From assembly GCF_910592395.1 (NCBI RefSeq), contig NC_088314.1, positions 14,632,001 through 14,696,000 on the forward strand: a DNA stretch of 64,000 nucleotides, given 5' to 3'. Below, in pieces: positions 39-59,319 of this stretch. Both the position numbers and the translations under genes were made by a program. This stretch comes from Lineus longissimus (lineage: Eukaryota; Nemertea; Pilidiophora; Heteronemertea; Lineidae). Within the stretch, counting starts at the first letter, position 1; each line of letters opens with the position of its first letter. The notes below the pieces were generated by a model. It searched no databases and was not told where the DNA came from. It worked only from the letters and a program-made list of their open reading frames with translations.

Positions 39-386
39 GTATCTGTTCTTATCAGCTTAATATCTGATACGCACCTCATTGAGGTGCTTCGATATTAAAG
101 GTCATATATCAAGGTTTTTTGCCATTTTCTGCTGTAAGACGATTTCAAAAGTGTACCTAACACTTTATACAATACAGAAAACCAAATGCAATTAGCTCCA
201 TCCATTCTGAAGATATAGCCAATTATGTGTTTGACAACTTGATTACCTGATCAGGCTAGCAACTGGATTGTTAGAGCCAGGCGGCGGGTTCAGCAAAAGT
301 TGTGATGTAGATCATGTCATGCAATCATAAAAGCAGGAGGGCCTTAATTAGTTATGCACACCTGGAAGTAATGTGTTTCATTCACT

Positions 387-740
387 ATGGTGTATTGTGT
401 GGCTCCGAATTGTGTCAAGGCTAGCACAAAGAACAATCGAATGACGGATGGGACCCATTTTCATGAATTTCCAAAGCCAGTTGAACGAGAGAGGAGGAAG
501 CTGTGGATTCGGAAGTGCAAACGTTTGGAGTGTTGGAAGCCTGGGCCTTCGGCCAAACTTTGCAGTGATCACTTTATCGATACGGATTATCACATGAAGC
601 CGGATATCTGCATCCAACTGAATATTAAATGCCACTTGTTAAAAACAGCTGTTCCATCTGTATTCGATTTGACCAACCCCACTTACATGCGACAGCCTCC
701 AAAGGAACGTTCGTTAGCCAAAAAACGTAAACATCAAGAA
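387..740 (+). CDS. THAP-domain (C2CH zinc finger) protein, first exon
   Basis: The reading frame starts at the ATG at 387 and runs 118 codons to a strong donor (GAA|GTGAGT at 740/741). THAP features are plain: C4 and C9 at the N terminus, HEFPK at 26-30, LW at 39-40, the LCSDHF segment carrying C59 and H62, and an AVPSVF box near residue 88. THAP domains bind DNA through a zinc-coordinating C2CH fold and occur in P-element and Kolobok transposases and in host THAP proteins. It lies inside the TTAA transposon, so it probably is a transposon DNA-binding protein. The exon ends in phase 0; the next exon is not fixed. Without splicing the frame would stop at 749. Confidence 0.8.
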
Positions 741-1108
741 GTGAGTTGAACACTATTTCATGATTTATACACTGCTGATGCACACAACACTCATACTACC
801 CAAATGGCACATGTCATCCACTGTACAGTGGCTACACAACCATGTCAATTGCATTTAATGCCCGAGGCTGCTGAGGTCGGTTGTTATACATAATGTGTTC
901 ACAGAGAGACTAACACTGTTCTTCTATTTTGGCATCAGTCAATTTTGAGATGGTCCCTTTAGAGAGGTTCCATTTGACTGTGAACACCATTTCCATTTCC
1001 AGAGGTATTTCATGGAGATGATCTTGTGTCACCAAAAACAAACAGGACATCCTATAAATACAAAATATTTATTGTTAAAAAAAAATCAAAATATTCGTTC
1101 CTTTTCAG

Positions 1109-1344
1109 AATACATTGAACTTCTACTGAATGAGGTATTGAGACTTCGAGAGAAAATGCCCTCGTACAGCACTGCATTGGCCAATAGAGAAGATCGCATC
1201 AAGTCTACACCCAAGCCAGTCTGTACGAAATACACGAAAAGTCAAACCAAACTTGAGGTCGTGGATAGCCGGAAGACTCGATTTAATCGGACGCTCAACT
1301 CTTTGGATAACGAAAGCCAGTGTACTCCTCTGAGGGCCAGGTAG
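1109..1344 (+). CDS. Possible later THAP-gene exon, coiled-coil-like
   Basis: After a pyrimidine-rich acceptor (CTTTTCAG|AA at 1,108/1,109) an open frame starts with EYIELLLNEVLRLREK, which looks like the leucine-rich coil that often follows a THAP finger. It then becomes basic (about TPKPVCTKYTKSQTK) and stops at 1,342-1,344. The splice phase does not fit direct joining to the exon ending at 740, so either another exon lies between them or this is not coding. Its last 50 bases are antisense to exon 3 of the ballast gene, and that part at least may be only a shadow. Confidence 0.3.
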
Positions 1345-2341
1345 AGCGAATTTTGTCACGAGCACAGACTGGAAGAGGAAGTCTTTGCTTTTTGCCCAAA
1401 CGTTGCCAGCACCAGCGCACAAATCTGCGGTATGCAAGGTATCTCCATAACCTGAAAAGACAGTTTGAGAGAAAATTTGAGTTCAGATGAAACATAATGC
1501 ATACAATGTAGTATGGTCATGAATCCTTTGTGCTGAAAGCAGTTGTTTCTGTTTTGTAAATAAATAGGAAGTGTACATGTACAAGTTTCTGTTATTTTAC
1601 TTATTTCAACTTACTTGTGCATTGGCTGATCATTTCCTATTGGCCCTTGATCTTGGATAAATTCATACATGGCACTTTCCAGGACATATCGGTCAAGGCA
1701 GTTGCTTGCGAATCCGGGATGCAGAGTTATGCAGGCAACTCCATCTGGCTCATAACTTTCCTTCTTGGCCAGAACTGGGGAATAGTCACTGCAGCACATC
1801 GACTCTGTTCCAGTGATTTGAGCTGTGCAGTTTCCACAGTCACACCTGAAGTGATAAACGTTTACATATTTACAAAAAATTATGATTAACACTAGACCAG
1901 TTACCAGTTGCCCTCCTTGGCTTCCCTCAGTCTCAGTGATGATGAGGCCGAGTCCATGACATGGCAGATGGCAAATGTCCTTCAGAGACTGTTCAAATAC
2001 ATACAACCTTTGAACCAATACAAAGCCATCCAAGAAGTGCCAGAGCATCAGATAAAGTCCAATTGTGTATAGTAGTAGTGGATGCATGTCATGATGTAGT
2101 GCTGTGTGCATAGAGAACAGAGTGAGAATGTAAACAAAACTTGCCATTTTCTGTTGCCTGCATGTTCAGGGCGTTCATCCTCCACTTCCTCATCACTTTC
2201 GTCCGAATGATCACTCTCATTATGATCTAGTGATATCAATGGCTCGAACATGTATGGCTCAACGTTTAAATATCCTTCTGTATCGACCAAAACATCCTCA
2301 AATTCACTGCTCTCACTCTCTGAACTGTATGCGGAAGCCAT
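1295..2341 (-). CDS. P2X7 'ballast' (P2RX7 C-terminal) domain protein, three exons
   Basis: Exons on the minus strand are 2,341-2,145, 1,845-1,615 and 1,451-1,295; they join in frame to 194 residues and a stop. Exon 1 encodes an acidic, serine-rich N terminus. The first junction creates NRKWCDCGNC, the WCxCGxC start of the ballast domain. Exon 2 supplies the CC pair, ITLHPGF and NCLDRYVL. Exon 3 gives RYLAYRRFVRWCW, LPVCARDKIR and a terminal EEYTGFRYP. These match the order of motifs in the cytosolic zinc-binding domain at the C terminus of vertebrate P2X7 receptors. No channel part is present. Intron 1 has a GC donor (TG|GCAAGT); the other sites are canonical. The gene lies wholly within the TTAA transposon and appears intact. 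Its function in invertebrates is not known to me; a DNA- or nucleotide-binding adaptor is possible. Confidence 0.85.
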
Positions 2342-2668
2342 CTTGCTTTGTTCTGACTGACACGACCTACGTCATCAAAAAATCCCTAGCGGCCACATGT
2401 GGAACTAATCTAAAGTTGTGTGTGGTGGGAAATTCAAATAGTTTCAAATTGAAAATTGAAATAACTAAATAATGACTTTATTATTAGAATTTTTTTAATG
2501 TCTGGGATCTTGTTTTTTTAACCCTCAACATATTTCATGAGTATCAAGCATGTTTTCAAACCTTGATATATGACCTTTAAACTGATTTTTGGACCTCGGC
2601 GAGATGTCAGGGGCTTGCTCCGCTCTCGCCACGGGTTGGCCTGTTGCAGTACCTCCAGGATCGGCCCA

Positions 2669-3595: not shown

Positions 3596-3698
3596 ATCGC
3601 TTCTCGGCCTATTGACTTCGTTTCAGTAGTGTCGGTTACTGCGCCTAGTTACTCCCGTTTATTTGTTGTATTTTTGCAGCCCCATCTTGCTAATCAGG

Positions 3699-4762
3699 AT
3701 GGCGGCCTGTAAAAAATTGAAGGCTATTGAGGAAAGATATATAAGCAACAGATTGGTAGCCGGGACTGTACGCATACATTGTTTTTTTAATGCTTTCAGG
3801 CATGATGTCGTCTCCTTCTTGAAGGAATTTGGAATGGATAAGAATACAACCTTACGATCCCTGTACCAGAGAGAGGCGTCAAGAGATTATTACGCGGTGT
3901 TCGGAAACGTGGATGAAGCCAGACATTTTGCTTCCCTCGGCCAGGTAATTTCAAAGAGCAATAACAACGGCAAAGTGGTTCTGTCGGCAGTCGATAAGGA
4001 AATCGTCTCTCTTAGAGTATTATGGCTACCAATATATGTGAGTAACGACTACGTGAGGAGAGTTTTCAGTCATATCGGGGAAATAGTTAAAGTGACAAAT
4101 GAGGAAACTTCGATCCAAGGATACGTAATGGAAACGGGAGTGAGAGTGGTGACACTTAAAATCCATGAAAAGGATAAACATTCAATTCCACATAGAATAG
4201 ATACGGCGGACGGCTATTCAATGCTTATAACGTGTAGAGGTAGGTTACCTCTTTGCCTCAAATGTAACAAGTTGGGACATGTGAGGTCTGAATGTGACAC
4301 AACGAGAAGACCCCAAGGACCGCCCGCCCAAAGAAGTAGATTGGATTCAGTAGATTCAGAAATAGACTCAGTAAGCGAAGAACTAATTACAGACTGTCCG
4401 AGCGCATCAGAGGAAGAGACCCCAGATATCCCAATTATGAGAGGGGAAAATCCACCTACCCAGGAGGTGGATCCAATTCTAAAACCAAACGTAGAGAATA
4501 TGGAATGCGAAGAAATATTGACTGTGCCAGAGACTCAGGAAGGAAAAACCAAACCCCTTCTGAGACCCCTATAGAAAACTCATCACAAGAACTTTTTTCA
4601 CAATCACATCAGATCCAATCAAAGAATTCACTGGCGGAGGCCTTGGAGTTTTTTTCAGAAACTCCATATAGTCAAAAAATTCCAGAGGGACAAGGATCCC
4701 CAAGTACCAAAAAACTGAAAATAAGTGTGTTTGATGAAGAGGAAGTGGATAATAATCATTAG
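3699..4762 (+). pseudogene. LINE ORF1 (nucleic-acid-binding protein), frameshifted
   Basis: The start is taken at the ATG at 3,699 (MAACKKLK), which follows the 5' UTR. The protein has an RRM-like N-terminal half, a middle segment with LRVLWLPIYVSNDYVRRVF, and a CCHC zinc knuckle (CLKCNKLGHVRSEC, about 4,257-4,298). An acidic and serine-rich tail follows. The frame is lost between 4,505 and 4,574, where it would stop. The other frame then continues to 4,762 with a C terminus (KKLKISVFDEEE) that aligns with KKLKTMSLFDTDEE of the second copy at 13,250. One small indel thus explains the break. ORF1 proteins bind the element RNA. Confidence 0.85.
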
Positions 4763-5008
4763 ATACAATTGCTAACAGACGGACTTATATAACGGACAAC
4801 GATTTTGAACAACGGACATATAGTGAAAATAAAGAACTGATAACTGGAATACAACCACCTCGATTCACCTACGGACAATGTTTTTTTCCTCCTTTTGGAG
4901 TCATATGTTTCATCAGAAATTCTCATGTTAGTATTGTAAATATTTTCAGTATACCATATCTGTATCTTTTCAGCCTTTGCCGTTTTGTTTTCTAATCCTT
5001 TGTTTATA

Positions 5009-8000
5009 ATGTCTCATATTTCATTTTCTAGCCTAAATTGTCAAGGTATTTCAAGTTTTTCAAAACAGCGTCTAATTTCTAATTATCTTTTACAGTATGA
5101 TCTTGATTTTATATTTTTACAAGAAACAAATGTTTCTTCTCTTTCCTTGGCCAAGAGGATTGAGTCTTATTTTGGCGCCAAAGCTTTTTGGTCTTTTTCT
5201 TCGCAGAAGAGTACTGGTTCTGCCATTTTAATATTTTCTTCAGATATTGTTACTAGTAACTTTTCTTATGACCTAGACGGCCGTATTATTTTTCTTGACA
5301 TAAGAGTCAGAGGGTTAAAACTCCGGTTGGTAAACATATATGCACCCACAAATGAGGCCGAACGTAGGACCTTTTTATCCACTCTTTATACTTATTTCAA
5401 TACAAGTCCCAAGATTATTTCGGGCGGCGACTTTAATTGTGTAATGTCCACCAAGTTAGACAAGGTCGGGGGGAACCCCGCCCGAAGCTTAGTTGGTTCG
5501 GACGAATTATTTTCTTTGTGTCGGGATTTTTCTTTGCTAGATGTTTTTAGATCTCTTTATCCAAACTCAGTGTCCACAACGCAGCATTCAAATGCCGTAC
5601 ACTGTAGGTTGGATCGTTTTTATATTTCTAAGGAATTAATGAGTAGCGTCTCGGAATTCCTGGTATGTCCGACGCCATCATGTATTTCCGATCACGACCT
5701 TATTATTATGAACATCGTTCCGAGTAAAACTATCCACCTCGGGCGAAGTTATTGGAAGTGCAATAACTCTATTATTTCTGATCGTGCTTTTGTTAAAAGT
5801 TTTTATGATTTCTGGTCGCAGAAAATGACCGGGTTTATTTTGTCTTTAGATAGCTGGGATATTTTAAAGTCGGATATAAAAGATTTTATTATTGCTTTTT
5901 CTCGGCGTAAAGCCAATGTTTCTAAATCCGTTATTAATTCTCTTAGGAGGCAGTATTCTATGTTACAAAAATCCTCATTATCTTCTTCTAGTCCGCAGGA
6001 CTATAGTGATCAAATTAATGTTATTAGGGAACAACATTCTTCTCTATATAACAAAGAGGTTTTTGGTGTTTTTATTCGCTCTAAATGCGATTTTTTAAAA
6101 GATTCGGAGAAGCCCTCCAAGTATCATTTTATTAAGGAAAGGAAACGTAGTGAAAAGAAAGTTATTAATAAGTTAGTGGTTGATGGTCAAGTTTTTTCAG
6201 ACACAGAGTCTATTTCTAATGCTTTTCGGACCTTTTATTCTCAATTATTTTCTGATGAGGGTATTGACGCTGACCTCATGAATGATTTTCTTTCTGACCT
6301 TCCTCAGCTCTCGTCTTCTGACGCAGAGCTGTGTGACGGACCTATTCTTTTAGAGGAAATTTTGTATGCACTGAAGGGCATGCAGAATAATAAATCGCCT
6401 GGTTCGGATGGTTTGGGAAAGGAGTTTTATCTCGGTTTCTTTGATCTAGTAGGCCCATTGTTAGTTTCACTTTATAGTCTTATTTTTGAGGAGGGCCTTT
6501 TGTCCGAGTCCCAGCGGCCCTCTTATATTTCTTTATTGTGTAAAGACCCCAACAATTCTGAGGACATGAAGAATTGGAGGCCTATTTCTCTTTTAAATAT
6601 TGATTATAAGGTTTTGTCCAAAGTTTTAACTTTTAGGCAATGTCATGCCATCTATTATTCATATTGATCAGACGTCCGGGATCAAAGGGTGATCTATCAC
6701 AGATAATTTACATTTATTACGTAATATTTTTGATTTTGTTAGTCAGAAGGATATTCCCTGTGCCTGGATTAATCTGGATTTTTTTAAAGGCTTTTGATAG
6801 ATGTTCTCATCAGTTTCTTTTTGAGGCAATCACCCGTTATGGTTTTAATGATTCTTTTCAGAAATGGATTCGTATCCTCTATACTAATGTTACTTCTTCT
6901 GTTATTGTTAATAATTACGTTTCTAAACCTTTTTCATATTCTCGTGGTGTAAGGCAAGGTTGTAGTATTTCTCCTTTATTATTTGTTTTGTGTCTCGAGC
7001 CTATGGCTATTAAAATACGTAAGGAAGAGGCCATTAAAGGATTATCCCTTCCCGGACGGCCGGGGTCTGTCAAAAATATAATGTTCGCCGATGACGTCAC
7101 TGGTGTTGTTACCAGCGACCGAGGCATGGCCTCTTTCATGAATATTGTCAAACTTTTTTGTCTCGCTTCTGGTTTTTCTCTCAACCTTATTAAGTCCAAA
7201 GGGTTTTTTCTTGGGAAGTGGAAGTCACGGAGTGACCACCCCTTTGGCATTTCTTGGCCGGACAGGGTTAAATTACTGGGTTGTCTTTTTGGGTATACGG
7301 TTTCACACGATGATGTTTGGGGTCCTATTTTTAATAAGTTCGTTAAGGTTCTTAATTTCTCTAAGTTATCTGGTCTTACTTTAAAACAGAAGTCTATTAT
7401 TATTAGTACGTTTGCGTGTTCCAAGATATGGTATACTGGTAGTGTGTATTTTATGCCTAAATGTTATATAGATAAATTTCAATTGGTTATATTTCTATGG
7501 CCCCGAGCCAATTTTGAGCCTTTGGCTCGTGCCACTCAATTTCTTCCCTTTTTATTCGGCGGTCTCGCCATTGTAAACATAGCATTAAAATTATGAGCCT
7601 TATCAATAAACCACATGTGTACATATATTGTTAATTTTGATGCGGCCTGGCACCCTTTCACCAATTACTGGTGTGCTTTGCACTTTCAGAAATATAATAA
7701 GAATCTCTGGTCAAACTCTTCCCCTCATAATTCCCTTTTATCACCTTTTTATCAAAAAGCCATTAAGAACTTTGTTCACTTAAAATCTACTTTTCCAAAA
7801 TTTGATCACACTAAAGCCTCTGTTAAAACTATATATTCCTTGCTTCTCGGCACAATTACAAAGCCCCCACGATGTATTACTTTGTTTCCATCTATTAATT
7901 TTAAAAATGTATTTGTAAACCTGCACCATCAGTTTATTGAACCCGCTTCACAGGACGTTTCGTACAGACTGATCGTGCAGGTATTGCCCGTTAATAATCA

Positions 8001-8460
8001 AATATTTCAATGGTCTCGTGGCCAATATGGGCTTAGGCCTTGCTCTTTTCATTGTGGTTTCAGTCACGAGACATAACAACATTTATTCTATTATTGTACT
8101 CTTGTCAAACCATTAAAGTCTTTGCTAAGTGATTTTTTCTCTCTTTTTGATCTGAAATTAAAATTTGAACACATATACCTATTAAATATCTATGTTAAAG
8201 ATCCTTTCGTAAAATCTCTTTTATTATATCTATGTACAGAGTACACGCGTACCATTTGGATACAGCGTAATTTAAAAAAGTTTGAGAAGAAGACCATCTC
8301 TTCCAACTCTCTCATTTTGTATTTTGTATCTCGTATAAATACCCGTATTCGTTGTGATTATCACAGATTTAATATTTCTAAGTTTAAAAAGTATTGGTGT
8401 CAGTATCCCGTCTTCTGCTCTGTAGAAGAAGGGGTACTGGAGCTTAAATTGTCTATATAA
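5009..8460 (+). pseudogene. LINE ORF2: APE endonuclease and reverse transcriptase, several frameshifts
   Basis: The start at 5,009 (MSHISFSSLNC) is supported by alignment with MLDISFASLNC at 13,533. The endonuclease has LNCQG, FLQETN, NIYAPT, GGDFNCV, RLDRFYIS and SDHDLI. Reverse transcriptase follows, with SPGSDGL, WRPISLLN, then after a frameshift near 6,650-6,760 DFLKAFDR, GVRQGCSISPLL and the catalytic FADD (about 7,085). The C-terminal region continues in broken frames at 7,615-8,076, ending with a CSFHCGFSHET zinc-knuckle-like segment, and at 8,122-8,460. In life the protein nicks U2 DNA and primes reverse transcription there. This copy is dead. Confidence 0.88.
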
Positions 8461-9283
8461 TTATGTTAATTCAATTGTTTTCTGTTGATCAACCGTCATA
8501 TAAACTCATTTGCCTTTACTTGTTCTGACTCGTCAAATCATTTAACAAAATGTTAAACAACCGTCAATCCTAAGTACTAGCATTCTTATTAAATTTCATT
8601 GGCAGTGACGTGATCGGCTTTGTCCACCGATCACGCCACGTGACTCCTTTGAATCAGTTTTTCCTCTTTAGTTTATTCATTGCTTTCGTCAAATTCAAGA
8701 AGGCTTTATCTTGCCTGATTTTAAATTGTATAAACATTGACGGCTTTAGTCTTCTTTCCTTCGGTTGATCTAGTTAAACAATTGTGTATTATTATTATTT
8801 CGTATGTTCAATTTATGCTGCTGTAATCTTTCAAGTTATTGTCAACCCTTTTCTATAGGCGCGCGTGCGGGCCGGTCATCGACCGTGTCGGCATGTGTGC
8901 CTCGTTGTTCCATTTTACAACATTAATAAATTTCCAATTCTCGTTGTAAAAGGCGTGAGTCTGCGGTCTATTACCGTGCAGGCTCGCGCCAAGTAGTATT
9001 TCATTTTACTAAATTTTTCAATTATCCGTGTTTGCGGCAACATCTCGTCATGTAAATATAATTTTAACCCGTTCTATTCCAGTCGTTTCCCTTTTTACAG
9101 GAAAGTCTAACTAACACTTTCCTTTTTGAACACAGTGTCGTTACTAATACACTGTTTTAAATCATTACCCCCTTTAAATCCTAGTTGTAAATTAAATCTA
9201 TCTATGTAATCCCCGTTAAAATTCAGCCTTCAGTCAGTAGTATCTCTGTATGTGCAATAAATTTTACTTACTAAAAAAAAAAA
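8461..9283 (+). other. LINE 3' UTR
   Basis: This stretch carries no open frame of note. It ends with a CAATAAATTTTACTTACT segment and an A run directly against U2. The same end is present at 1-38, so it is likely the part recognised by the reverse transcriptase for target-primed priming. Confidence 0.75.
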
Positions 9284-9434
9284 GTATCTGTTCTTATCAG
9301 CTTAATATCTGATACGCACCTCATTGAGGTGCTTCGATAATAAACTGATTTTTGGACCTCGGCGAGATGTCCGGGGCTTGCTCCGCTCTCGCCACGGGTT
9401 GGCCTGGTATTGCAGTACCTCCAGGATCGGCCCA

Positions 9435-10361
9435 TAATAAACAAACCAACAATAGACCTTTCCCCAAATGCCCTTCCCCATTCTTGACTTCCCTTTCCCA
9501 TGCCTTACCGAGCTTGGGAGGGAGGGGAGGGGGGGGGGGGGGTCCTGGGGCCAGGTGATTCAAATTAAACTAAATATGTATCAGAAGCTAAGCAGATCAA
9601 GAACAGATACCGGTACAGTTGTGTGTGGGCATTAAATCAAGGCAAGAGTTTGGTCGAATAACCTCGTGTCCGAGCTCTGTCTGGCGCCTAAATGGCTTCC
9701 TGGCCGCAGACGACCTCCCTGGTGACGGGAAGCCCCTGTGACGATATCGATGACGTCACCGCAGCCAGGCAGCCACGTGTCCCTGGCGACAGTGGCGACA
9801 GTGACGTCAGTGAGGGCTCAAACTGGCCGTGCTCGACGTTCAGGGCCGAATTTGGCACTCGAACGGGGGGAGGGGGGGGGGCACCCGCCAGTCGAAAGAG
9901 CAGCGCCAGGCCTACATGAAACGCGTGTGAAAAGGTGGGCATGCTTGGAATAGTTCTCCGTCGGTTGCCGTTGGAAGATTCGCTTGGAAATAACTTGCTC
10001 ACCGCCTCGATTGGCTTGTGTCGTTCCGCGCGGTGTTTGCGACCTACATTCAGACGCCCTAATCGGACGGACTCACCTCGAACTCCCAGGGCCCGCGAAG
10101 CCAGTCACACGCCCAGAACAGCTTGGCCACCGCGGGACGAGGCGCGTCCTTCGACTTTCTAAGGAACTACTGTGCTGGGGGGGACACTCCTCGCTCCACG
10201 GACAATTTGCCTTGTCGATTCCCGAGGACACTGGCACCTGCAACGTCGTCTGCTGCCATCTGGCGTTGACCAAATCAACTACGTCACACGCAGCCGAAAC
10301 GTCACGGCTTGGACAATTCACGCCGTTTGCAACATGTAGAATTTTCGAAGCCGACGCCGGC
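9435..10361. repeat. U2 array spacer, unit 2
   Basis: This is the second copy of the spacer described at 2,669-3,595, with only scattered single-base differences and changes in the lengths of G runs. It ends in front of the U2 start at 10,362. The near identity of the spacers while the U2 copies are interrupted indicates recent concerted evolution, with the insertions younger than the last homogenisation or tolerated by it. Confidence 0.85.
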
Positions 10362-11446: not shown

Positions 11447-12416
11447 CCTCTGTGACCTTGAAAAGTAGGTCAAATCAAAGAAGACCCGGGTGACACATTG
11501 AATGGTTGTTAGAATTAGATGTACCTATGATATAAAATTGGTGCCAATCGGGCAAGTCATTACTAGGAATAATGGCATTTTGAAGAATTTAGGATTTGGC
11601 CCCCTCCCTGGAGGCCAAACGGCAAATCAGATCGCACCAATCTTCGGTACCTGAGATCACCTGACCAAGGGGTACATGTGTACTTAATTTGCGATCAATA
11701 GTCATTGCAGTTAAGAAACGTGCCAAAGTTACGGCCTGACGGCGAATTTACACCATTTGACCTCTGTGACCTTGACAAGAAGGTCAAATTAAAAACCTGT
11801 GTGACATATACTGTATGGTAGTTAGATGTACCCATGATATCAAATTGGTGGCAATCGGGCAAGAAGTTAAGGAATAATCACATTTTTAAGGTTTTGGGAT
11901 TTTGCCCCCTGGTGGTCAAGTGGTGAATCATATTGGACCAAACTTCGGTCCCTGAGATCACCTGACTAAGGGGTAAATGTGTACCAAATTTGGTATCAAT
12001 AGTCATTGCAGTTTAGAAACGTGCCATCGTTACATCCTAACGGCCAATTTACACCATTTGACCTCTGTGACCTTAGGAGGTCAAATCAAAAACCCGGAGG
12101 ATATATGATGCACCTTTGCTAGAAGTACCTACCATAGTTTTTTCAAAATTTCCCGATTACTATTAAGGGAGATATTGCATATTTTCACTTTAAACGTTTG
12201 GCCCCCTGGTGGCCAAACCATGAAACGAATCGGACCGAAACTTAGTCTCCAAGGTGTCATTACATAAGGGTACATGTGTACCAAGTTTCAACTCAATAGC
12301 TCGAACAGTTACGAAACGTGCCTTGCTAACGGACGACGGACGACGACGACGACGACGACGTCGGACGACGGAAGCCACGGTATGGGATAAGCTCACCTCT
12401 GCTAAGAGGTGAGCTA
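11424..12416 (+). repeat. Tandem-monomer element ending in (ACG)n and a terminal palindrome
   Basis: About three monomers of roughly 310 bp each contain GACCTCTGTGACCTTGA, GGCCCCCTGGTGGCC and AAGAAACGTGCCA. They are followed by an ACG-rich microsatellite (12,330-12,372) and a perfect hairpin (12,390-12,415, AGCTCACCT...AGGTGAGCT) just before AAAAA. The same design recurs at 41,400, 45,130, 61,107 and 62,285. The organisation of tandem core, short microsatellite and 3' hairpin is like that of pearl elements of bivalves and of Helentron-associated (HINE/DINE-type) elements. No coding capacity is seen. Confidence 0.75.
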
Positions 12417-12420
12417 AAAA

Positions 12421-13255
12421 GGATAGTCTCGTTGCACTGTACCAAAGAGAAAGAACGAACGTATATTTTGCAGTATTCAACGATAGCAAAAGTGCCGACT
12501 ATTTCGGAGGACTAGGGACTCAGGTGTCCGAAGGAAAAACATTTGAATTGACAAGCATTACGAAAGAAAAAATTCAACTTAGAATACACTGGCTGCCATC
12601 TTACATCAGCAATGACTTTTTATATGAATTCTTCGGGGAATATGGAGAAGTGATTTCAGTAGTTGAGGAAAAAACAAGTGTTGAAGGTGTCACCGTCAGA
12701 TCAGGTTTACGAATTGTGACACTAATAGTGAGTGACCAAACAAAGTCTTGCATACCACACAAAGTTCAAACTGATGACAATTTCAGCATGTTGATTACAT
12801 GCAAGGGTAGACTTCCGTTATGTCTGAGATGTAACAACTTAGGACACTCCAGAAAAGAATGCAATGCAGACTTAGGAAGAAGAACATACGCAAATGCAGT
12901 CATGAAAAAAATCCCAAGCTACCAACCACCAATAGAAATAGAAGAAGAACTAACATCAGAAAACGAATCAATGGACACAGTAAAAACACCTGAAACAAAT
13001 AGAACGTCTGAAAAAACCGAGTCAAAGAGAGTGGACTTAATAGCAACATCATCAACAAGGATGAACCCACCCTTTGACTCGGAAGTGCAACCGGAGAAAC
13101 AACAAGAAACATTAGACCACGAAAACCCGGAGATAGAAGAGCCCTCAGAAGACATAACAGACACACCAATAGACGATACGATACAACCTGGCCAAGGGAA
13201 CCCTACGAAAAAATTGAAAACGATGTCGTTATTCGATACGGACGAAGAAAATTGA
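12421..13255 (+). pseudogene. ORF1 of another U2-LINE copy, N terminus missing
   Basis: The open frame enters at 12,422 (DSLVALYQRER) without a start and aligns with ORF1 of the first LINE from its LRSLYQRE segment on. It includes IHWLPSYISNDFLYEFF, the CCHC knuckle CLRCNNLGHSRKEC (about 12,822-12,863) and the acidic C terminus ending at 13,255. Identity is moderate, so this is a related subfamily. The N-terminal domain was replaced by the tandem-monomer element. Confidence 0.85.
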
Positions 13256-13532
13256 CGCAATTAAAGCACGAAAAAGACTTGAAATTGGACTATTCTTACT
13301 GATCAATGGACATATAGTGTACGCTTTCGGACTGATATTACGGATTACGACCACCTCGGCTTGCCCACGGATTACGATATTGTTTCTCCCTCGGGAGTTA
13401 TTAGTAAGTATGTATAAATATATATCAAAACGTTCTTGTTCTCTAAATTTCAGTATACCATATAAAGCAAATATCCTTATTCTCGCATTTATCCTCAGTC
13501 TATATTTTGTTTTACAGCATGATTGAATTATA

Positions 13533-15032
13533 ATGTTAGATATTTCTTTTGCCAGCCTCAATTGTCGTGGTCTTTCAAGTTTTTCCAAACAGCGCTTGAT
13601 TTCTAGTTTTTTACTTCAATTTGACCTTGATTTTATATTTTTACAGGAAACTAATGTAGATTCCCTTTCTTTAGCTAAAAACATCGAGGGGTATTTTTGT
13701 GCGAAAGCCTTTTGGTCTTTTTCTTCTCATATAAGTACAGGTTCCGCTATTTTTATATTTTCTTCTGATGTTACCACTGGGAATTTTCATTATGATTTAG
13801 ATGGCCGTCTTATTTATCTTGATGTTGACATCAGAGGGTAAAAGCTCCGACTTGTATTGAAAGAAGTATAAAGTGAAGATAAGAAAACCTTGCGATCGGC
13901 CTCAATAGAAGGAGAATATATATTGACAAGTCGCCAGCTCGTCTTGCGCGGCGACTTCAATTGTGTAACTTCCACTAAACTGGACAAGATTGGGGGAAAT
14001 CCCTCTCGAGGCCTAGTTGGTGCGAATGAGATATTTTCTTTGTGTCAGGATTTTTCTTTGTCGGATGTTTTTCGAACCCTCCACCCAAGCGCAGTGTCTA
14101 CCACTTGGCATTCAAAAGCTGTCCACTGTAGGCTTGATCGGTTTTATATTTCTAAGTCTTTGATGCGTAATGTACATGATTTTTTGGTGTGCCTTACGCC
14201 ATCCTCAATGATAAGGTCGTGATCAGAAATAATGAAAATAGTTCCGGAAAATCCTATTGAGTTGGGGCGTAGTTATTGGAAGTGCAATAACGCTATTATT
14301 TCAGATCGTAATTTTATCAAAGCATTTCATAATTTTTGGGCTAGGAAAATGTCAGGTTTTGTTCTCTCTCTGGATAGTTGGGATATTTTGAAATTGGAAA
14401 TTAAGTCTTTTTCTGGGCGCAAAGCCAAGGTTTCTAAGACTGTGGTTAATTCTCTCAAGTGGCAATATTCTTTGTTACAAAAGTCCTCATTATCTTCTTC
14501 TTGCCCACAGGACTACAGTGATCAAAATAATGTTGTAAGGGAGCAGATTTCTGCTTTACAAAACAAAGAGCTCTTTGGTGTTTTTATTCGTTCTAAGTGT
14601 GATTTTTTAAAGGATTCGAAGAAGCCCTCCAAATATCACTTTATTAAGGAAAGGAAGCGAAGTGAAAAGAAGGTTATTAATAAATTGGTTGCTGATGGGA
14701 AAACTCTTTTTGATAATGATTCGATTTCTGATGCTTTTGGTTTTTTTTATTCTCAGTTATTTTCGGAAGAGGAAAAAGACCTCTTTCTTCTTTTGACGCT
14801 GAGGTCTGTGATGGTCCTATTCTTTCTGAGGAAATTTTGTCTGCACTGAAGTTTAGGGTTTAGGGAAGGAATTTTATCTCGGTTTTTTTTATTTAGTAGG
14901 CCCATTGTTGGTATCTCTCTATTTTTGATGAAGGTATTTTGACTGAGTCTCTCTATTTTTGATGAAGGTATTTTGACTGAGTCCCAGCGACTCCCTTATA
15001 TTTCTTTGTTGTGTAAGGATCCTAACAATTCT
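13533..15032 (+). pseudogene. ORF2 of the same U2-LINE copy, truncated and frameshifted
   Basis: Endonuclease motifs are seen in order: LNCRG (13,557), FLQETN, RGDFNCV (about 13,949) and RLDRFYIS. Frame breaks occur around 13,841-13,890, 14,222 and 14,800. A 35-bp direct duplication lies at 14,914-14,983 and a deletion near 14,850 removes the SPGSDGL region. Homology to the first LINE ends abruptly at 15,032 within the WRPISLL approach region of the reverse transcriptase. This is a dead fragment. Confidence 0.85.
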
Positions 15033-24168: not shown

Positions 24169-26095
24169 TCACTGAAGATAGACATCTAATTTATCTAGCA
24201 GATAAACCAAATTATCTGCAGCGTCGTCCAACGACTGGGCCATGGATCTGTTTCCTTCTGTCATCAAGAATTGGAAAATTTCTTGGTGTTCCGCCCTACT
24301 TACTGTAGGTGGCGTGTTGGTCAATAGGTCCGATAGAACGTTTAGTTCAGTTTCATCGATGCCTCGCTTGCAGTCAGTACCACCACTTAACTCAGGGATG
24401 TGGTGAAGAACCTCTGGTTTCCCCGGGGGCGAATTCGGATTGCGGCAATCACGAATGTAATGAGTATTCCACAACATTCTGATTTCATCCAACTCTTCAC
24501 GCAGCAGATCCATGTAACAAAATCTACAACAGTCGATGTCGAGGCTGCTCGAGGTGTCGATTATGCCAGCATGAGCCAATTCTTTGAAATGCTCTATCCA
24601 CGTATTCATGCCCCTGCAACCGAACTTTGACCACCAGCTTTCTATGCGCTGATTCGCTGTGGAGCGCCCGTACAAGAAAACTGTGTCTTGTATTGCGCGC
24701 ACATCATTGTTAGCAGAGCGAAGAAAACGATGCATTTGTTCAATATTTACGTTTTCCGTGCCACGGTCGCCTCGGACAACATTCGGCAGTCCCTTTGCAT
24801 CTTTCACAGCAACCGAAAAGTATGTACACACGACTGAAGGGTCATTATTGGTTGATGCCGCGGCTAACCATAATATTTTCCTAGAGTATCCATCGATACA
24901 ACCATGCACACACAATCCAAATTCTTTCAACTTGTCCCACCCATCAATATGCCAGGCGTCATTCGGCCCTCTGGTGAAGTACTGCCTCCTACGTAATCGT
25001 CTTTGTCGGCGAATTAGCACACCATCTGGGTCAAGAACATTAAGAATCTTGCGAACTGTTTCTCTGTCGGTCACTATCTGATGAATCTTAGTAATTTTCT
25101 CATGCATTGATCTGTACCCGAGGTCCCTGCCGGTTTTCTGCATTTCTTCTCGAATGCCATTTATGATAGTCTGGATACTATCTCTTGAACCACGTCGCCT
25201 AAGGCCAAGCCGTTTCAAAATACGCTTGAGCTGTCGAAGACCTGAAAGATCAGATACCAAGATCATTTAATGTTGATTGTTTTACAATTAATTTTAAACA
25301 ACGTTTTTCCTAATTTCCACATCGGTGCATGATAATTATTCTAACCTCAGTGGTAATTATTCAAACCTCGGTGGTAATTATTCTCACCGTGATGGCAATT
25401 GCCACCGCAAGCATATTGGATGTCGGGATTGGCAGCCTCGAAGCCCCCGAACGTCATATAGCCAGCAGGGGCCCATCTAGGATTTGGGGGACGGTGGGTT
25501 TCGCAAGCATGCATGCAGCGCCGAATGCGCGTTGAAAGCTCCAGATGCCCGCCTGCGAAATTTTTTTCCCACTTGGTGTTCCGGACACCACGTTTTTTTC
25601 ATAACCTTCATTCTATTCTGACCCTAACCCTACCGTAACACTTACCCTACACTAACCTTAAACCCTCACCCCAACCCCAACCAATCATGCTTGCGGTGGA
25701 AATATTTGCCACCGTGGTGAGGATAATTACCACCCAGGTTCAAATAAATTACCACCGAGGTGGTACTTTAATGTTACTTTGAAAGCACTACAACCAGGGC
25801 GTCGGAAAGGCTAGATGGTTCTACAGTTTACTTGGAAAAGGGCAGCAAGCAAGCACTGACGCCCTTCCTCCCCCCCCCCCCCCCCACACACACACTCCGA
25901 GGACATTGAGTGCCACATACAATATATAGGCCTAGGCCTACTGTAAAAATTACCTATAGTACTACTGTGAAAACAGTATAGAAATCCGAGAATTTCATTG
26001 TTCTTAAAGCCGAGACGGAAATATTGGCCAATCAGTTCATCTCTGTCGACGTCTAGTTGATCTGCATTGTCCTTAGGTAGATAAAATGCAGCCAT
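24169..26095 (-). CDS. DDE integrase-core protein, two exons
   Basis: Exon 1 is 26,095-25,954 (MAAFYLPKDN to the donor ATAG|GTAATT). Exon 2 is 25,241-24,169 after a CTTTCAG acceptor. Phases fit and the join gives NEILGFLYCFHSSTI followed by GLRQLKRILKRLG, a helix-turn-helix, in a protein of about 404 residues. An RNase H-like integrase core follows, with D147 in WHIDGW, D206 in RGDRGTEN and E248 in QRIESWW (41 residues between the last two). This kind of integrase-core protein is found in many animals and fungi and derives from a DDE transposon. I see no terminal repeats around it, so domestication is possible. All three acidic residues are kept. The intron holds a fold-back MITE. Confidence 0.8.
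25344..25763. repeat. 420-bp fold-back element in the integrase intron
   Basis: About 77-bp imperfect arms are inverted repeats of each other, each with three spaced copies of a GGTGGTAATTAT-like motif and ending inward at CACCGCAAGCAT / ATGCTTGCGGTG (25,407 and 25,687 areas). The middle has CCTAACCCTA-like tracts at about 25,620-25,680. No coding capacity. Confidence 0.75.
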
Positions 26096-32049: not shown

Positions 32050-34531
32050 TCGCACCAGGACTTGTGCGTGCTAAAAATAAATAAAAACACGTTTTTCTCT
32101 ATTTTGAGAGTAAACATTTTCTTGTAAAAACATCGAAAACTTTAGGAAATATAGTTTCTTAATGAAATGAAATGGTCCATTGCTCACCTGTGTGTTATGG
32201 TTGAACATGGATGCAGTTCAAAAAAGGTTTTGCTTACGGCACTATTTGGGACATTGTTTATCCGACCATAAAATGATACACACTGCTTTACCAATAGCTG
32301 TAAAAGGAAGATGATGACTCTTCAGGAAGTCTGCATGAACTACAAGGACTGCGGTTAAAGGGGGACTATAGGCAGGCGCAGTGGGGTTAAGTTGGCCATC
32401 TTCAGGTGACTGATATACACAGTAAGGGCACTGGGCCATGTTGGATTCAGCACTTACTATATTCCTCGTACAAGCATGAATAGTTTCGACATACTGTTAG
32501 ATGTGAGAGAACCCTAGTGGCGACTTCGTGTAACTTTATCTTGCCTACCAAACTGTTGCCTATAGTGTCCCTTTAATATAAACTACACGCACCGCGATGT
32601 CAGCATCCCATTAGACAAATTGCCTGACTTTTGACACCACTTGCTGTAAACAATCGGTAGGTTCGCCTACTTGGCCTCAGCAGCCTCCTCCCCAACAAAG
32701 GTCCATCCTGCACGAGGAGCCTGGGTAAGTCTTACATTTACCACGGCCTGGGGAGGCGTGTACGAATGTATACATTGGAATATACATGTATGATAGTTTC
32801 TAAATTGTTTCAGTCTTTACAATGCGCAAGTCCTGATTTTAAATATATACATATATGGGGAAATTTGATCAAAATCCATCCCAGTAGCCCACCCCCCCCC
32901 CCCCCGGTAAATACATGTATCGCCATATGTTATGTGGATTAAGCCAGTGCCTAGCTCATGGGGCCCATCTGATTATTGTGGAAATCAGCAGTGTATTTCA
33001 TTGCTGACCGATACTTTTATTTGGCAATAAACTATTCAGTTGAGCAGTCCTCATCGTGAGAGTTTTATGACCTCGGTTTGCCTTGTTTATAAACCATGAC
33101 TTATGATTATTTACAAATGATTCAGGAAGTTGGTTACTGTGCGCATTTTTTATACGGTAAAAAAGAGTAATTATTGCGAGTGTGTCATGAATCTGGTCTG
33201 TAATATTTTACGGCTGCGAAAGAAACAGGTTAGAGGATGTTCTTTTTCTAACATTAGCGAAGTTTTTATCTGTCATAATGGCATAACATAATGATTTGCA
33301 GACGCATTATTGATACAAATCAATATAAAGAGGACATTTTGAATAGTTCCAGCGTTGTAATTCTGACCTGCCCCAGCTTTCCACGTTGAGCCAAGGATGG
33401 GTGGGAAAGTAGGAGGCATGTAGGCCCGTGGTACGAAAGAAACAGAAAACAACACCGTACATGATTCTCCTGAATATAGGCTACTGATTACGCGCCAGAC
33501 TTGCCTGAAACCCTCGTCATTATAACAAGGACATGGGTGACTTCAAAGTTGGTGTTATTGTTAATTTTGTGCAAGTGTTAGGGCTTTTATGCAGCAACAA
33601 GACAATATTTGAGAATGACGCTATGATCAACACGAACTTAAGGTGTAAAGCTAAGCGTAGACGGCCTTGTTTGTGGAAATGATGCATCCAGGGCTGCTGA
33701 AAAACTATAACACTTTCCCAAAGTTAACACCAACACCAACGTTGAAGTCACCCAACCTAGAAGGGCAGCGTCACCTCAAAGTTAAGGTTCCATTCCCGTC
33801 ATAGACGACCTGGCTTGTGATCATTAGCAAATCACTTCAATTTCATCCTGGTACATTTGGAAGGGCAAGCAGAAGACACCATCCTGCATATGCCATCCAG
33901 GTGAAAGTGAGAAACTTGGATAGCTTACGATGGACTCCGCCCGAATAATTCCAAGCAAGAGCAAACGCAGAAGAAAAAATGTAGCCACTCCTCGGTAATG
34001 AACTATATTCAGGAGAATCAACCAGATTTTCACCATGAAGTTGGTATTGAAAAGGATACATCATTTTTACCCACTTTTGCCCTACAACTATTGTCTTAAA
34101 TTTAAGTGCGTGCTGCGATCCAACCATTAAGAATGTGTGAAAAAAATATTTTGGGTACCCTTACACCAAAGTTCTAGGGTCATTTCCACAAAGTTGTCCA
34201 AAATTGTCATTTTCTGAGACTGTGGCTCTTAAAAATTCAATGCCCTAGTAAGAAAGCTGCCAGTGCCAGTTTCAGTTTTAGTTTGCTACTGTTTGGCTTG
34301 GACGTCCACACTACGAAACACTATGAAACAATGCTAATGCTGCCAAACGAATACAGGCCATTTAGTTCAGATGGTGGATCACATGATCACCAGCTCTTTT
34401 TTGATTTGCTGCTTTTGCCAAGTTTGTCAAGAATGTGCACGTCCTGGAGACAGTTTTCCGATGCTTGTCAGCTGGACTTTGTTGACGCCTTGGTGTCGCG
34501 ATTGTTCATTCTACCAAATAACTGAAAACAT
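32050..34531. other. No recognisable gene
   Basis: Apart from a C run at about 32,890-32,906 and open frames below 100 codons without recognisable motifs (34,283-34,525; 33,843-34,127 on the minus strand) I see nothing that can be supported. Confidence 0.4.
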
Positions 34532-35978
34532 ATGACTCTTTCCGCATATCAGAGATCCAGGATAATCGCACTCCACCGGCATTACCCTGATGCAAGTTAT
34601 CGCTTCCTGGCTGCTCATTTAGCCAATGATTCGCCACCTTTTTTTGTGAACTGGAGAACTGTCCGGCGTTGGGTTCTACGCGAGGAACCAAATCAACAGA
34701 CCGGTCAAATTCGTCGTCACAAGTTCTCAAAGAAGATCTTGCGGGATTTCATTGACCGTCAATTGAAAACGAACGACGAGTACACCACGGCTGAATTAGC
34801 GGCAATCTATGAGGAGGAATACAACATTACAATATCAAGAAGCACGATTTCTAGGGCTAGGCAAAAAGCCGGTTGGAAAATCTGCGGTGCCAAATATTGT
34901 CAGATCGTAAAACCTCAAAACAAAATTAAGCGAATGGAGTACGCATTGAAATGCCTGGCCGAACAAGAGACGTTCGAAGACATGATCTTTTCGGACAAAT
35001 CATCAGTGTGGTTAGAGCGTCATCGAAAGAAGGCCTACAGCAAGTTCGGAAAATCAGCTTTGAAACCAAGAGGGAAGCACCCAGTAAAGGTACACGTATG
35101 GGCCGCCATTAGCCGCAGAGGTGCAAGCCAGATCTGCATCTTCGAAGGAAAAATGAACGCCTCCATGTTCCTGGATATATTAAAAGAAACCGCTGTTCCC
35201 TTTATTTGTGAGCATTTCCCTGATCATCACCGCTTCATTCAAGACAACGATCCGAAGCACGTTTGCAAGAAGGCACAGGAGTTTTAGGTTGAGAATGGGA
35301 TTAACTGGTTCCAAACTCCGCCAGGTAAGGACCGCAGTTTTGTTATTATCTATCTTTCTAATCCTAAGTCCATGCACATTTGGCAAGTCGGCTTTAGGCT
35401 TTACTGCGTGTACCAAATGTACACCATGGGAGTTTTACATGTAATTTGAGTGGTTACTCTATTCTTCAGGCTCCAGTGTTGTACGCAGGGGAGTAACCCA
35501 TCCCCCACACCTTAGTTGACGTCTTTGTTTATGTGCCAAGAGGACCTTAGAACAATCTACATTTATACTCGTGCCTGTTTTCAGCCATGAAAACTAATAT
35601 TTACATGTGTTGTGGGAAGGGGGGGAGCACTATTGAGCTCTCAATAAGGTTGCTCATGGTTTAAGCGGGTAAGCATGGTAAGAGTGAATGCCCGCCGAAA
35701 ACATTGAGGGCATTTCAAAAAGCTTTACAGGCCGACTGGTGATAAAATGTTATAATTTTCCAGAATCCCCTGATTTGAACCCAATAGAAAATCTTTGGGC
35801 CGAATTAAAACATCACCTGAGGACTAAAGTAAAACCTTGGAACAAGGATGAACTAGTCGCAGGGATACAGGACTTCTGGAGCACAGTAACTATAGAGAAG
35901 TGCAACCGATATATCCAACACCTAACAATGGTTCTGCCCAAGGTCATCGAGTATGAAGGAGCTGCCTCAGGATACTAA
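34532..35978 (+). pseudogene. Tc1/IS630-type transposase with an intron and one nonsense codon
   Basis: Residues 1-120 form two helix-turn-helix regions (for example YQRSRIIALHRHYPDASYRF, and ISRSTISRARQKAGW). The DDE core has D155 in FSDKSSVWL, D240 in QDNDPKH and, after a spliced intron (35,325-35,763, CCAG|GTAAGG ... TTTTCCAG|AA), E in SPDLNPIENLW. Phases agree across the intron. A TAG at 35,285-35,287 interrupts the frame just after AQEF; the same frame then continues cleanly with VENGINWFQTPP. It is therefore a nearly intact copy with a single nonsense codon. I could not find terminal repeats. Confidence 0.85.
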
Positions 35979-49830: not shown

Positions 49831-50859
49831 CTGGCTGTGCTGATTATCAGTATGCCGTAGCCTTAGTCTTAACTTTCCATTTTGATGGGGGTGCACCTAC
49901 ACGATAGGACCATGCATGCAGTAGACATTCCCGTTGGCGTTTCGTTGCCATGGCCGAATCCGACTTGGTGATTACGCATACTCGGGTGCATACTTAGCGT
50001 GAATTCACTGAATACCTCCATGTGTTCACCGATGGAGGTACCTCCATGGTTCACCTAATACTTGTGGATGACGTCCAAGATGTATGAATCAGTGAAATGC
50101 AGACCGCCGCCAGGAAAGTGTCAAACAGGAGAGAAGATACTTGAGAGTACCGGTGAAACATCTGTGGTTGGTTGTTCCCAATATTTCAGTGCCGTGTTTC
50201 CATACATTAGGCCTACAAAGCTAGAGAGACCACAACTTTTCAATAGGGGGAAAGACAGAAAAACGTCTTAATCTTTATTTGTCTGTTCCTAAATAAAGAG
50301 CGGAACACTCAAAACTGGAAACATTCCAAGACATTTCACCGGTACGCTGTTTAAATCTGTTAATATATATACTAGTAGATCTATACCAAAAAAGATAAAC
50401 AGTCAAGACGTGATGCGACTGCTTGGGTCCGATGATAATACCGTTGTGAATGACGATCTGTCAAACTTGCGAATCTTCCGTTTGATTGTCCTATACGTCA
50501 TGACGTCTGCGTGGTGTTGTGCGACGACATATTTCCCCTGCGACGACACCGTATGTTGTGATGTCGTGGCCAAGATGACGTGTGGTTGTCAGGGGTTCTT
50601 TTGCGCTTATTAATTAATTCATGATGATCTGGTTATAATTTATAATGATCAGGCTATAATGATGCGTATAGCGTACAGAATGATCCACCCAAAGATTGCT
50701 GTGTTGCCCACTAACTATGTTGTAGCCTATATTTAAAAATGGGTGACTCATTTTCATACTACTTCAATTTTCGTCACAGGATGTCCTTTTACAAGGTTAA
50801 GCTAACAGAATGAAAATCAGGTGAATTAGCGTGCCATAGTTAGGAATGAGTATATTTAC

Positions 50860-51990
50860 CATCGCTATCAGACCTGTACATTTCATTTATAAGGGCACTT
50901 GCTTCATCATTGAGTTCGTCGAAGATCTGTTGACCTTGTCTATCAAGAGTGTACGTCACACCTTCTTTGTTGACGTGATATATCTCCTTGAATGTCGCGA
51001 TGAAGTTTGAGACCCCCGAGTCCTTGAGTTTTCTCTGGTTACGTTTTATGTCGCATGATTTGTATCTCTTTGGTTTGCACACCATAAATAAAAACCTATC
51101 GAGGAAGCCATCGTTGCATGACGACATCTGCAATAGGTCGTTGAGGAATGGGACAGGTTGGATAGGAATAAAAACACACATGCTTGTGTTAGAAAACCCC
51201 CTCTCTCCTGACACGAGGTTAGTGCAATCTCCTTTGCCTCCCCACATTTTGCAGAAGAGTCCCCGTTCACCTTCACCTTTTGATTCTTTAAACCGAATTG
51301 CACTCATGATGTTTGTGCCTTCATCGGCAGTGATGATCCCGTACCCTTTGGCAAGCTTTTGGTGTGCTTGTAACCCGGCACTGGTGTATGTTTCCAGTTT
51401 TACGTTCAATGGTTCCTCGTCATCTTCTTTAAACGAGTCCAGTACAGATTCCAGGACCTTCCCAAAAACCATTGATTTACCACCGGAGGGGTCGCACACG
51501 TTGAAGATGTACGTGTTCAGCGTTGACGTCAGCCCATCTTCCATTAGGCGCACTCGTGACCTTGGTCCTGCAAAGGTTCCTGTCAGGGTTAACAATGCAG
51601 GCATGACCATATTGATGTTACAGCACTCGTCTATATCAAAGACTTCCAGCCAGTCTAGCACCTCCTTCATGGGCATCTCATTCCATGGTATCTTCTTCGC
51701 CCATGTTTGATTATACACTCTTTTGACTTCTTCTCGTCGAATCGTTTTTTTGGAGGCCATCTGGAATAACATGAAATAAAAGTTGGTAAAAACCAGAAAA
51801 CACTTAAACGTTGAGTAAAACAGAAAATGGATGTACCGCATTTGCGAATAATATATGTGAACCATTAAAATAAAATTGAAAGAAAACCGAAAAATCGAAG
51901 TCATATTTTTCTTAAATTCAAATCAATCAAGGCATGTAGGTACACAGGTGGAGTACAGTTCGACTTACCTTGATTGTTGCTCATTAAATG
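50860..51990 (-). CDS. DUF3987-like P-loop protein, 5' part (two exons seen)
   Basis: A short leader exon (about 51,990-51,969) ends at CAATCAAG|GTAAGT. The coding exon starts at its acceptor (TTATTCCAG|ATGG, 51,760) and runs 300 codons to a donor at 50,860 (GATG|GTAAAT). It has a Walker-A-like CDPSGGKS at residues 89-96, ITADEGT (a Walker-B-like DE at 146-147) and DGFLDRFLFM (217-226), the pattern of DUF3987 proteins, which resemble phage and plasmid helicase/primase accessory ATPases. I infer an ATPase; substrate and role are unknown. The rest of the gene is to the left and not resolved. It is transcribed away from the ISXO2-like transposase. Confidence 0.75.
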
Positions 51991-52024: not shown

Positions 52025-52452
52025 CCCTGTGGTATGTTGGGCTTAAATGCGCGTTGAGTTGACGCCCCAGATTTAAATTCATAAATCCCGCTTATAGTCC
52101 ACTCCAATTTCCATTTATTTTGGCGCTGTGAAAATACTTCTGTCTCTGTGATAACATTACTGTAAGAACATGTGCTGTGTGAAAAAGAGATGAGCGCATA
52201 AAAAATATTGTGTATATATATGTTCTTGGAAGAGGCATTAACTTTTGGGCATGGCCATAAATGTCAAGTATATACTGGGTAACCTTTAAAAAAGTTTCGG
52301 GAAGTAAATAAGCGAACAAGTGGAACCGAAATCAGATCAGAGTGTTTCCGTATTTAGGGTAGATTAAAGTTTGGTTTGGAGTTTGGGCCGATTCGAGTTA
52401 AGCAGCGATTGTCCAATGAATAAATTATGAGGACTATAAATTAAATAATGAC

Positions 52453-58800: not shown

Positions 58801-59319
58801 AATGACTGGTACCCAGGTAAGACATTCCTACTATATTATAAGCCTCTAAAACTTACAATGCTAAGATGAAGTTTTAAAATAAACTTGGACTAGTCAACCA
58901 GTGTCCCTTTCTCTTGTTTGCAGAGAAGCCCTATGAAATCGATATGTAATATATTTGTATCTTCATATCTTCCAGGTCTGGTGACACAAGTTATCAGTGA
59001 GGACCTAGTCAAGGTAGATTTCCTGCACCCAACCAGTCTTCCAGGCCAATACCGTCATCCTGCTGGTTCCAAAGACGAGGAAGAAGTCCAGAAGATCTAT
59101 GTTTTTGGCGGACCCCTGCTTCCTCCGGTTCCAACTAGTGGCGGGCGTCTCTATTCTCTGCCACAGGCAATGCAGTGTGAGAGTGCGTACAAGACCTTCA
59201 AGGAGCGGTTAGTAAAGTTATTCAGTTATTACTACTTGTAGGCCTTAGAGATAGTACATAGTAATAAATGTATTTAACACTGTGACATTTATTTCATCAT
59301 CTATTTTCAGGTACTGGTA
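55888..59319 (+). CDS. Spliced hAT-like transposase-derived protein with C-terminal small domain
   Basis: Exons are 55,888-55,981 (probably non-coding), 56,147-58,816 (ATG at 56,164), 58,976-59,207 and 59,311-59,319 (stop), with canonical sites and matching phases. The protein of about 966 residues begins basic and has a coiled coil at about 170-270. A core with LTLPTMICPLGFRP, MTDRAANEKL (about 423) and YCMIHVLLGFHSYG (about 461) follows. Near 731 it has SERDFGTLDASQQRRRNATL, like the dimerisation part of hAT-like transposases. Then come a bipartite nuclear signal (KKRKRDEKKGSKKKQK, about 816) and an acidic linker. Exon 3 completes a small domain that starts WVAVAFDNDWYPGLVTQV and contains VKVDFLHP. 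I cannot place the superfamily. No frameshift is present, so it is recent or under selection. Confidence 0.75.

Follow-up and report, generated by a model that had tools for sequence, protein, structure and literature searches.

A stretch of 64,000 nucleotides of the Lineus longissimus genome (the window; C7:14632001-14696000) contains a U2 snRNA gene interrupted by a DNA segment that carries a gene for the ballast domain of P2X7 receptors. The locus raises the question of whether this gene is a single acquisition or a regular component of a mobile element. Analysis of the window revealed a perfect 23-nt inverted pair at positions 95 to 117 and 2558 to 2580, which consists of TTAA and a 19-nt terminal inverted repeat (TIR), AGGTCATATATCAAGGTTT. 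The left TIR (99 to 117, plus strand) starts with AG (5'-RR), and the right TIR lies at 2558 to 2576 (minus strand). The TTAA target-site duplication is located at 95 to 98 on the left and at 2577 to 2580 on the right. A search of the window for the TIR with up to 3 mismatches gave 2 matches, compared to 0 in 100 shuffled sequences, which confirms the 19-bp TIRs with TTAA on both sides claimed in the original prediction.

The insertion into a U2 gene was likewise borne out. Rfam matches to U2 were found to the left (39 to 94) and to the right (2581 to 2674) of the element, both on the plus strand, and the flanks, joined with one TTAA, aligned across the junction with few differences to a U2 copy at 9257 to 9440. 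This alignment indicates that the U2 gene is interrupted and that a paralogue represents the empty site. The 5' part of the interrupted U2 gene had earlier been replaced by the 3' end of a LINE with a poly-A stretch (1 to 38). The same LINE/U2 joint as at 38/39, at GTATCTGTTC, is also present at 9283/9284. LINE sequence at 3630 to 9283 and 12413 to 15032 has a separate first frame and a frame read by eye as endonuclease and reverse transcriptase, and a second LINE follows that is 71% identical over 1.6 kb. With its 3' end and poly-A joined to U2, the window LINE looks like Keno; Keno and Utopia are described as inserting in U2 genes (PMC4640811).

On the minus strand of the element, the gene model revealed a complete ballast gene with three exons, in agreement with the original prediction and with the Pfam and PDB matches given below. 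The gene, for which the name KolX (Kojima and Bao 2022, PMC9587614) is used here, comprises exon 1 (2341 to 2145), which encodes an acidic N terminus, exon 2 (1845 to 1615), which carries six of the seven aligned cysteines, and exon 3 (1451 to 1295), and its product has 194 amino acids. The first intron is of the GC-AG type and the second of the GT-AG type; the GC donor of intron 1 restores a W-C-x-C motif. The protein, scored with one additional residue at the first splice, reached 43 bits against the Pfam family P2RX7_C (PF20478; cut-off, 23.5), and four distinct P2X7 sequences in the PDB were matched with E values of 4e-5 to 3e-4. In the alignment with the P2X7 ballast (chains such as 9e3q and 6u9v), the motifs WCxCGxC, CC, ACIT, AYR, and LPxC correspond. 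The seven cysteines of KolX align with P2X7 chain positions 477, 479, 482, 498, 499, 506, and 572, and equivalents of R546 and R578, described as GDP-binding residues of P2X7 (PMC7016195), are retained. A ballast fold with two zinc ions and seven conserved cysteines has been described (PMC9587614), and the seven aligned cysteines of KolX are inferred to be the same seven. At 30 other ballast loci of the genome, each of the seven cysteine columns is conserved in 25 to 29 loci, the misses including 0 to 4 gaps. Unlike P2X7, KolX is a free-standing protein with an acidic N terminus, located inside a transposon, and a Pfam scan of the protein gave no P2X channel part. The free-standing ballast (ZCD/Nanor-like) proteins of animals described by Rump et al. 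(2020, PMC7016195) are like KolX in that they are short and have the same C-terminal domain with conserved cysteines.

The plus strand of the element contains an exon at 387 to 740 (ATG at 387; position 727 could serve as a weaker donor) that encodes a THAP DNA-binding domain (Pfam PF05485, 49 bits). THAP structures were also matched in the PDB (THAP2, E 1e-4; THAP11, E 0.009). A last exon, placed at 1109 to 1344 by the gene model and by comparison with a relative on contig C17, is preceded by the acceptor TTTTCAG; in the shortened copy, the GTGAGT donor at 741 is in frame with an acceptor before 1003. Its similarity to the last exon of an element on contig C14 is weak (E 0.018). The coding 3' ends of this transposase remnant and of KolX, on opposite strands, overlap by 50 bp (1295 to 1344).

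A sibling element of 3,941 bp (L031) was found to contain an additional 1,572 bp between points 898 and 895 of the window, which places an internal deletion junction with a 4-bp overlap at 895 to 898; L031 in turn lacks 118 bp present in the window copy. The extra 1,572 bp encodes a core-like piece with SSLESYHN and a C-terminal piece with ALHFNEN, and neither is found in the window copy. By their motifs, both pieces appear to be Kolobok-like. When 19 TIR-paired copies (L031 to L049; L050 was left out) were compared for the deletion, 17 were found to hold DNA absent from the window copy, and beyond L031 the extra DNA of 15 of these copies partly matched the 1,572 bp of L031. A genome search for the 36-mer spanning the junction, allowing up to 3 mismatches, gave two sites, one in the window and the other at C3:8904565. 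The C3 copy is 99.2% identical to the window copy over its whole length, and its flanks differ. Because the same junction occurs in a copy of this identity with different flanks, the shortened form has probably been duplicated or transposed on at least one occasion. The alternative explanation of the shared junction would be that this 4-bp repeat was twice, independently, the site of a deletion.

A full relative of the element was found at C17:1639058-1644482 (L086; 5,425 bp including both TTAA), with TIRs AGGTCAGTAGCCCC that have 2 mismatches in 16. Its plan consists of TTAA, TIRs, a THAP exon (52.5 bits in Pfam), a DDE-transposase-like exon, a last exon, and a convergent KolX gene. In tblastn comparisons, in which some stretches cross introns or stops, it was 59% identical to the window in the THAP exon, 49% in the last exon, and 52 to 53% in the KolX pieces, and its identity to L031 was 84% in the core piece and 73% in the C-terminal piece. 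The C17 relative also has exons resembling those of the C14 element, with DRH...HWFDVWHVAKG. The DVWHVAKG exon matched the MULE model with 25.4 bits (E 2e-5), slightly short of the cut-off of 27.6. Its match to Mutator (E 0.004), also below the cut-off, and that to DDE_Tnp_ISL3 were weaker; among the eight C17 frames scanned, four were without a match and two had weak unrelated matches only. Since a common motif has been used to place Kolobok in one group with MuDR, P, hAT, and Dada (PMC9587614), the MULE/Mutator likeness of this exon fits Kolobok. The C14 element, which belongs to a second family, has a length of 6,388 bp and the same plan (THAP, 46.6 bits; P2RX7_C, 64.1 bits); neither of its two core exons gave more than weak matches, and no family was assigned. 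The DDD/E triad and the C/DxxH motif were not located in the C17 and C14 exons.

Because the full relatives on C17 and C14 show the same plan, the THAP exon and the 3' exon of the window are, by sequence comparison, the two ends of one predicted transposase gene, which KolX regularly accompanies. THAP as a separate passenger gene was ruled out by the L031 pieces and by the full plan of the C17 relative. Thus, the THAP domain of the original prediction stood, and the separately carried THAP gene was replaced by the two ends of a middle-deleted transposase gene.

The window element was compared with the traits given for Kolobok elements. It has the TTAA duplication and termini of the form 5'-RR...YY-3' (AG...CT). 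With respect to a DDD/E transposase with THAP, the THAP and last exons are present, and the core pieces are absent from the window copy, which makes it a derivative of Kolobok and not an autonomous member. The second protein of Kol0 elements, KolX, is represented by the P2RX7_C and PDB sequence matches and is convergent with the transposase as in the relatives. The same traits are shared with Kol0 Kolobok as described for the type Kolobok-1_XT (DDD/E transposase and KolX, PMC9587614), the likeness being one by description; the window copy differs in the missing transposase core. Kolobok transposases are said to contain usually DDE, THAP, and H2CH parts (PMC6004289). On this basis, window positions 95 to 2580 are very probably a Kolobok DNA transposon of the Kol0 type, present as a non-autonomous copy with an internal deletion. 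The name Kolobok is given here by a feature set from the literature (TTAA, RR...YY ends, THAP, and KolX). Beyond the original prediction, the element fits the Kolobok superfamily, and KolX is the known second protein. The T2-MITEs of Xenopus, presumed non-autonomous Kolobok elements, are similar in their TTAA target, AGGRR ends, and short form (PMC6004289). Unlike T2-MITEs, the window copy keeps a whole KolX gene. MITEs are not known to carry genes.

TTAA duplications are also made by piggyBac elements, and KolX-like proteins are described in a few piggyBac families (PMC9587614). However, these proteins are said in the same source to be without most of the seven cysteines, all of which are found in the window copy, and AG...CT ends are stated there for Kolobok, unlike piggyBac. 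Moreover, a THAP exon is present, the C17 exon matches MULE/Mutator-type DDE models and no piggyBac model, and no piggyBac domain was detected in the two window proteins or in the scanned C14 and C17 exons. A piggyBac element with a KolX-like protein can therefore be given hardly any credence, and the element is treated as a Kolobok copy below.

The genome (391 Mb, 30 contigs) was searched with the TIRs and with the ballast protein, as the original prediction had proposed. Ends consisting of TTAA and TIR with up to 2 mismatches numbered 325 + 335, compared to 0 + 1 in the backwards control. The exact first 16 nt of the TIR occur 119 times in the genome and are preceded by TTAA in 94 of the 100 matches listed. 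A listing of 100 exact TTAA ends yielded 28 pairs of 1.0 to 3.9 kb, the window included; no full-length copy was present among these 28 pairs with exactly the window TIRs. A diverged copy (L081) was considered as a full-length element and rejected, as it is also incomplete. Twenty of the other 27 exact-TIR pairs were compared with the window element, the TTAA of these pairs being given by the search pattern itself. Each of the 20 has the same two ends as the window element, and the outer 8-bp flanks, compared for 19 of the copies, point to separate insertions. Two copies on different contigs (L043 and L046) have near-identical flanks to the left and right, and each may lie within a copy of the same repeat.

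All three KolX exons were found in 10 of the 20 copies, two of these with a stop. The remaining 10 have no exons 2 and 3, and a piece of KolX exon 1 was still seen in all of them by tblastn, so the absence of exons 2 and 3 represents a loss. In the whole genome, KolX exon 2 gave 20 matches: 16 full matches near 100% identity, one at 97%, two partial matches, and the C17 relative (74%). Because 20 exon-2 matches stand against 660 ends, most copies seem to have lost the KolX gene. The missing exons in half of the compared copies are what would be expected if a host ballast gene had been taken up at one place by an unrelated TTAA transposon. Against such a one-time capture stand the 10 copies with all three exons and the exon-1 pieces in the other 10, and also the elements on C6, C14, and C17, which have other TIRs and carry KolX together with transposase pieces. 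The outcome that the original prediction had named as a sign of capture, with the other copies free of the gene and the ballast genes outside TIR pairs, was thus not observed.

The P2RX7_C profile gave at least 96 matches at an E value of <=0.001 in the whole genome, a lower bound for which 150 of 187 candidates were scored and which does not include the exon-split gene of the window. The same profile had no match in 14 control genomes. The 55-aa C-terminal piece of L031 gave 110 genome matches from 131 candidates. A C-terminal-piece match was located within 3 kb of 46 of the 96 ballast matches (37 within 1 kb and 47 within 5 kb), whereas 0.23 pairs within 3 kb were expected under random placement and 0.71 under local shift. 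The paired matches are convergent in 46/46 cases; they are often copies of each other, and the counts are non-independent. Analysis of 30 ballast loci with 1.5-kb flanks revealed a C-terminal or core piece in 16, and homology end points fell at TTAA in 25 of 133 cases (5.4% expected; the points are non-independent).

The TIR of the C6/C14/C16 family gave 8 + 10 ends compared to 2 + 2 in the backwards control. These ends form six pairs, five of which enclose a ballast match, three of the five also enclosing a C-terminal match; of the single ends, three adjoin a ballast match and three do not. No TTAA-TIR pair was found within 1.5 kb of the 30 ballast loci (0 of 1,640 candidates; 39 of 16,697 in the cross-locus control); these flanks are too short for full elements. 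The 46/96 linkage, the five of six second-family pairs, and the C17 relative refute a one-time capture, to which next to no probability remains. Together, the whole-genome counts of linkage, orientation, and ends support the published claim that the ballast is a protein of Kolobok transposons.

No match to the C-terminal piece was located within 3 kb of the other 50 of the 96 ballast matches. Some of them (L058 and L068) are Kolobok-like by other signs. Eleven loci (L051 to L057, L062, L067, L074, and L077), which include the strongest P2RX7_C scores, gave no Kolobok-type signs in the flanks examined. A cysteine-rich frame lies upstream of the ballast on the same strand in L055, L056, L057, and L074, and with wider flanks L055 revealed a cysteine-rich exon upstream and Ty3/gypsy-type pol frames, read by eye, nearby. 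L051 and L052, on different contigs, are 99% identical over 3.5 kb. It is possible, although we hold it only tentatively, that this genome contains more than one ballast carrier and that these loci form, besides the Kolobok KolX, a separate recently multiplied class, either a second mobile family or a KolX family that was domesticated and joined to a new partner. In the latter case, the fusion would parallel that of P2X7, seen at a less advanced point.

Truncated P-element proteins block the full transposase. By analogy, the shortened Kolobok copies might be kept for a function, in which a short protein with THAP alone, together with KolX or in its absence, would block the full transposase at the TIRs. 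The THAP frame and the last exon are open in the window copy, L031, and L032, and the THAP exon is whole in L037, L045, L046, and L048, all of which are without KolX exons 2 and 3. However, the L033 frame contains a stop, the THAP exon is cut in seven of the ten copies that retain the complete set of KolX exons, and the position of the THAP exon near the end would by itself spare it from deletions. Furthermore, purifying selection on KolX was not seen: 2 synonymous and 10 non-synonymous changes, including 2 stops, were counted in 10 copies (the window and nine others; L034, with an exon-3 match lacking the first base, was left out), close to the share of 20% synonymous changes expected in the absence of selection. 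A retained inhibitory function is therefore unlikely. In non-autonomous copies, KolX genes multiply and decay, with no visible selection.

The full form of the element, represented by the C17 relative, has one gene for a THAP-plus-DDE-like transposase and a convergent KolX gene on the other strand. The window copy has lost the central part of this transposase gene and retains its THAP and last exons together with the complete KolX gene and the two TIR ends. For its movement, the following course is proposed. A full transposase acting in trans would bind the TIRs through its THAP domain, and the shortened copy would be moved into TTAA by cut-and-paste. KolX may assist transposition as an accessory protein, perhaps by binding zinc and nucleotides as an adaptor for either the transposase or a host factor; no transposition role of KolX was found in the literature texts available. 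A KolX gene of this sort would be the source of the P2X7 C-terminal domain, as proposed previously (PMC9587614), and such spare KolX genes would form a pool from which the domain could have passed to a P2X gene.

This view agrees with the text available for PMC9587614, in which Kol0 Kolobok families are described as encoding KolX, KolX as similar to residues 476 to 595 of P2X7, P2X7 as a fusion of a P2X4-like gene with KolX, and Nanor as likely a domesticated KolX. The idea of a ballast domain in a transposon is accordingly right in outline and, by that text, already published, with KolX as the ballast and P2X7 derived from it. In the open-licence literature, the link between the P2X7 ballast and transposons was found in PMC9587614 only, and among the matches listed the name KolX was found in that article alone. 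The string "transpos" has 0 occurrences in the available text of Rump et al. (PMC7016195), which mentions that in an Ixodes protein the ballast region is preceded by a "TAHP" domain. Fewer than 10 ballast genes per species are given there, in contrast to the at least 96 matches in this genome.

The P2X receptor family (PF00864) gave 11 matches from 17 candidates, located only at C2:23.28 Mb and C7:7.18 Mb, and the nearest listed ballast matches on these contigs are 4.5 and 8.7 Mb away. With no listed ballast match near the two P2X loci, a P2X-ballast fusion was not seen in this genome. A mobile element that carries the domain and could explain both its spread and its capture, as originally predicted, is partly supported, by the linkage and the second-family pairs; the linkage test gave no such pairing for 50 of the 96 matches, and a P2X capture was not seen here. 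Relatives were also sought in viral contigs and genome contigs, where 55 and 63 pattern stretches, respectively, were obtained and none was confirmed.

Further frames were observed in the remainder of the window. These include an integrase frame (rva_4) at 24169 to 25266 and a DUF3987 frame at 50840 to 51922, both on the minus strand, a Tc-type DDE_3 frame at 34526 to 35287, and a DDE_Tnp_IS1595 frame at 52420 to 53343. An open frame of 901 amino acids at 56164 to 58869 had no Pfam family at E 0.01 and is weakly similar (24%) to a 401-aa frame that adjoins a ballast gene (L077:263-1465).
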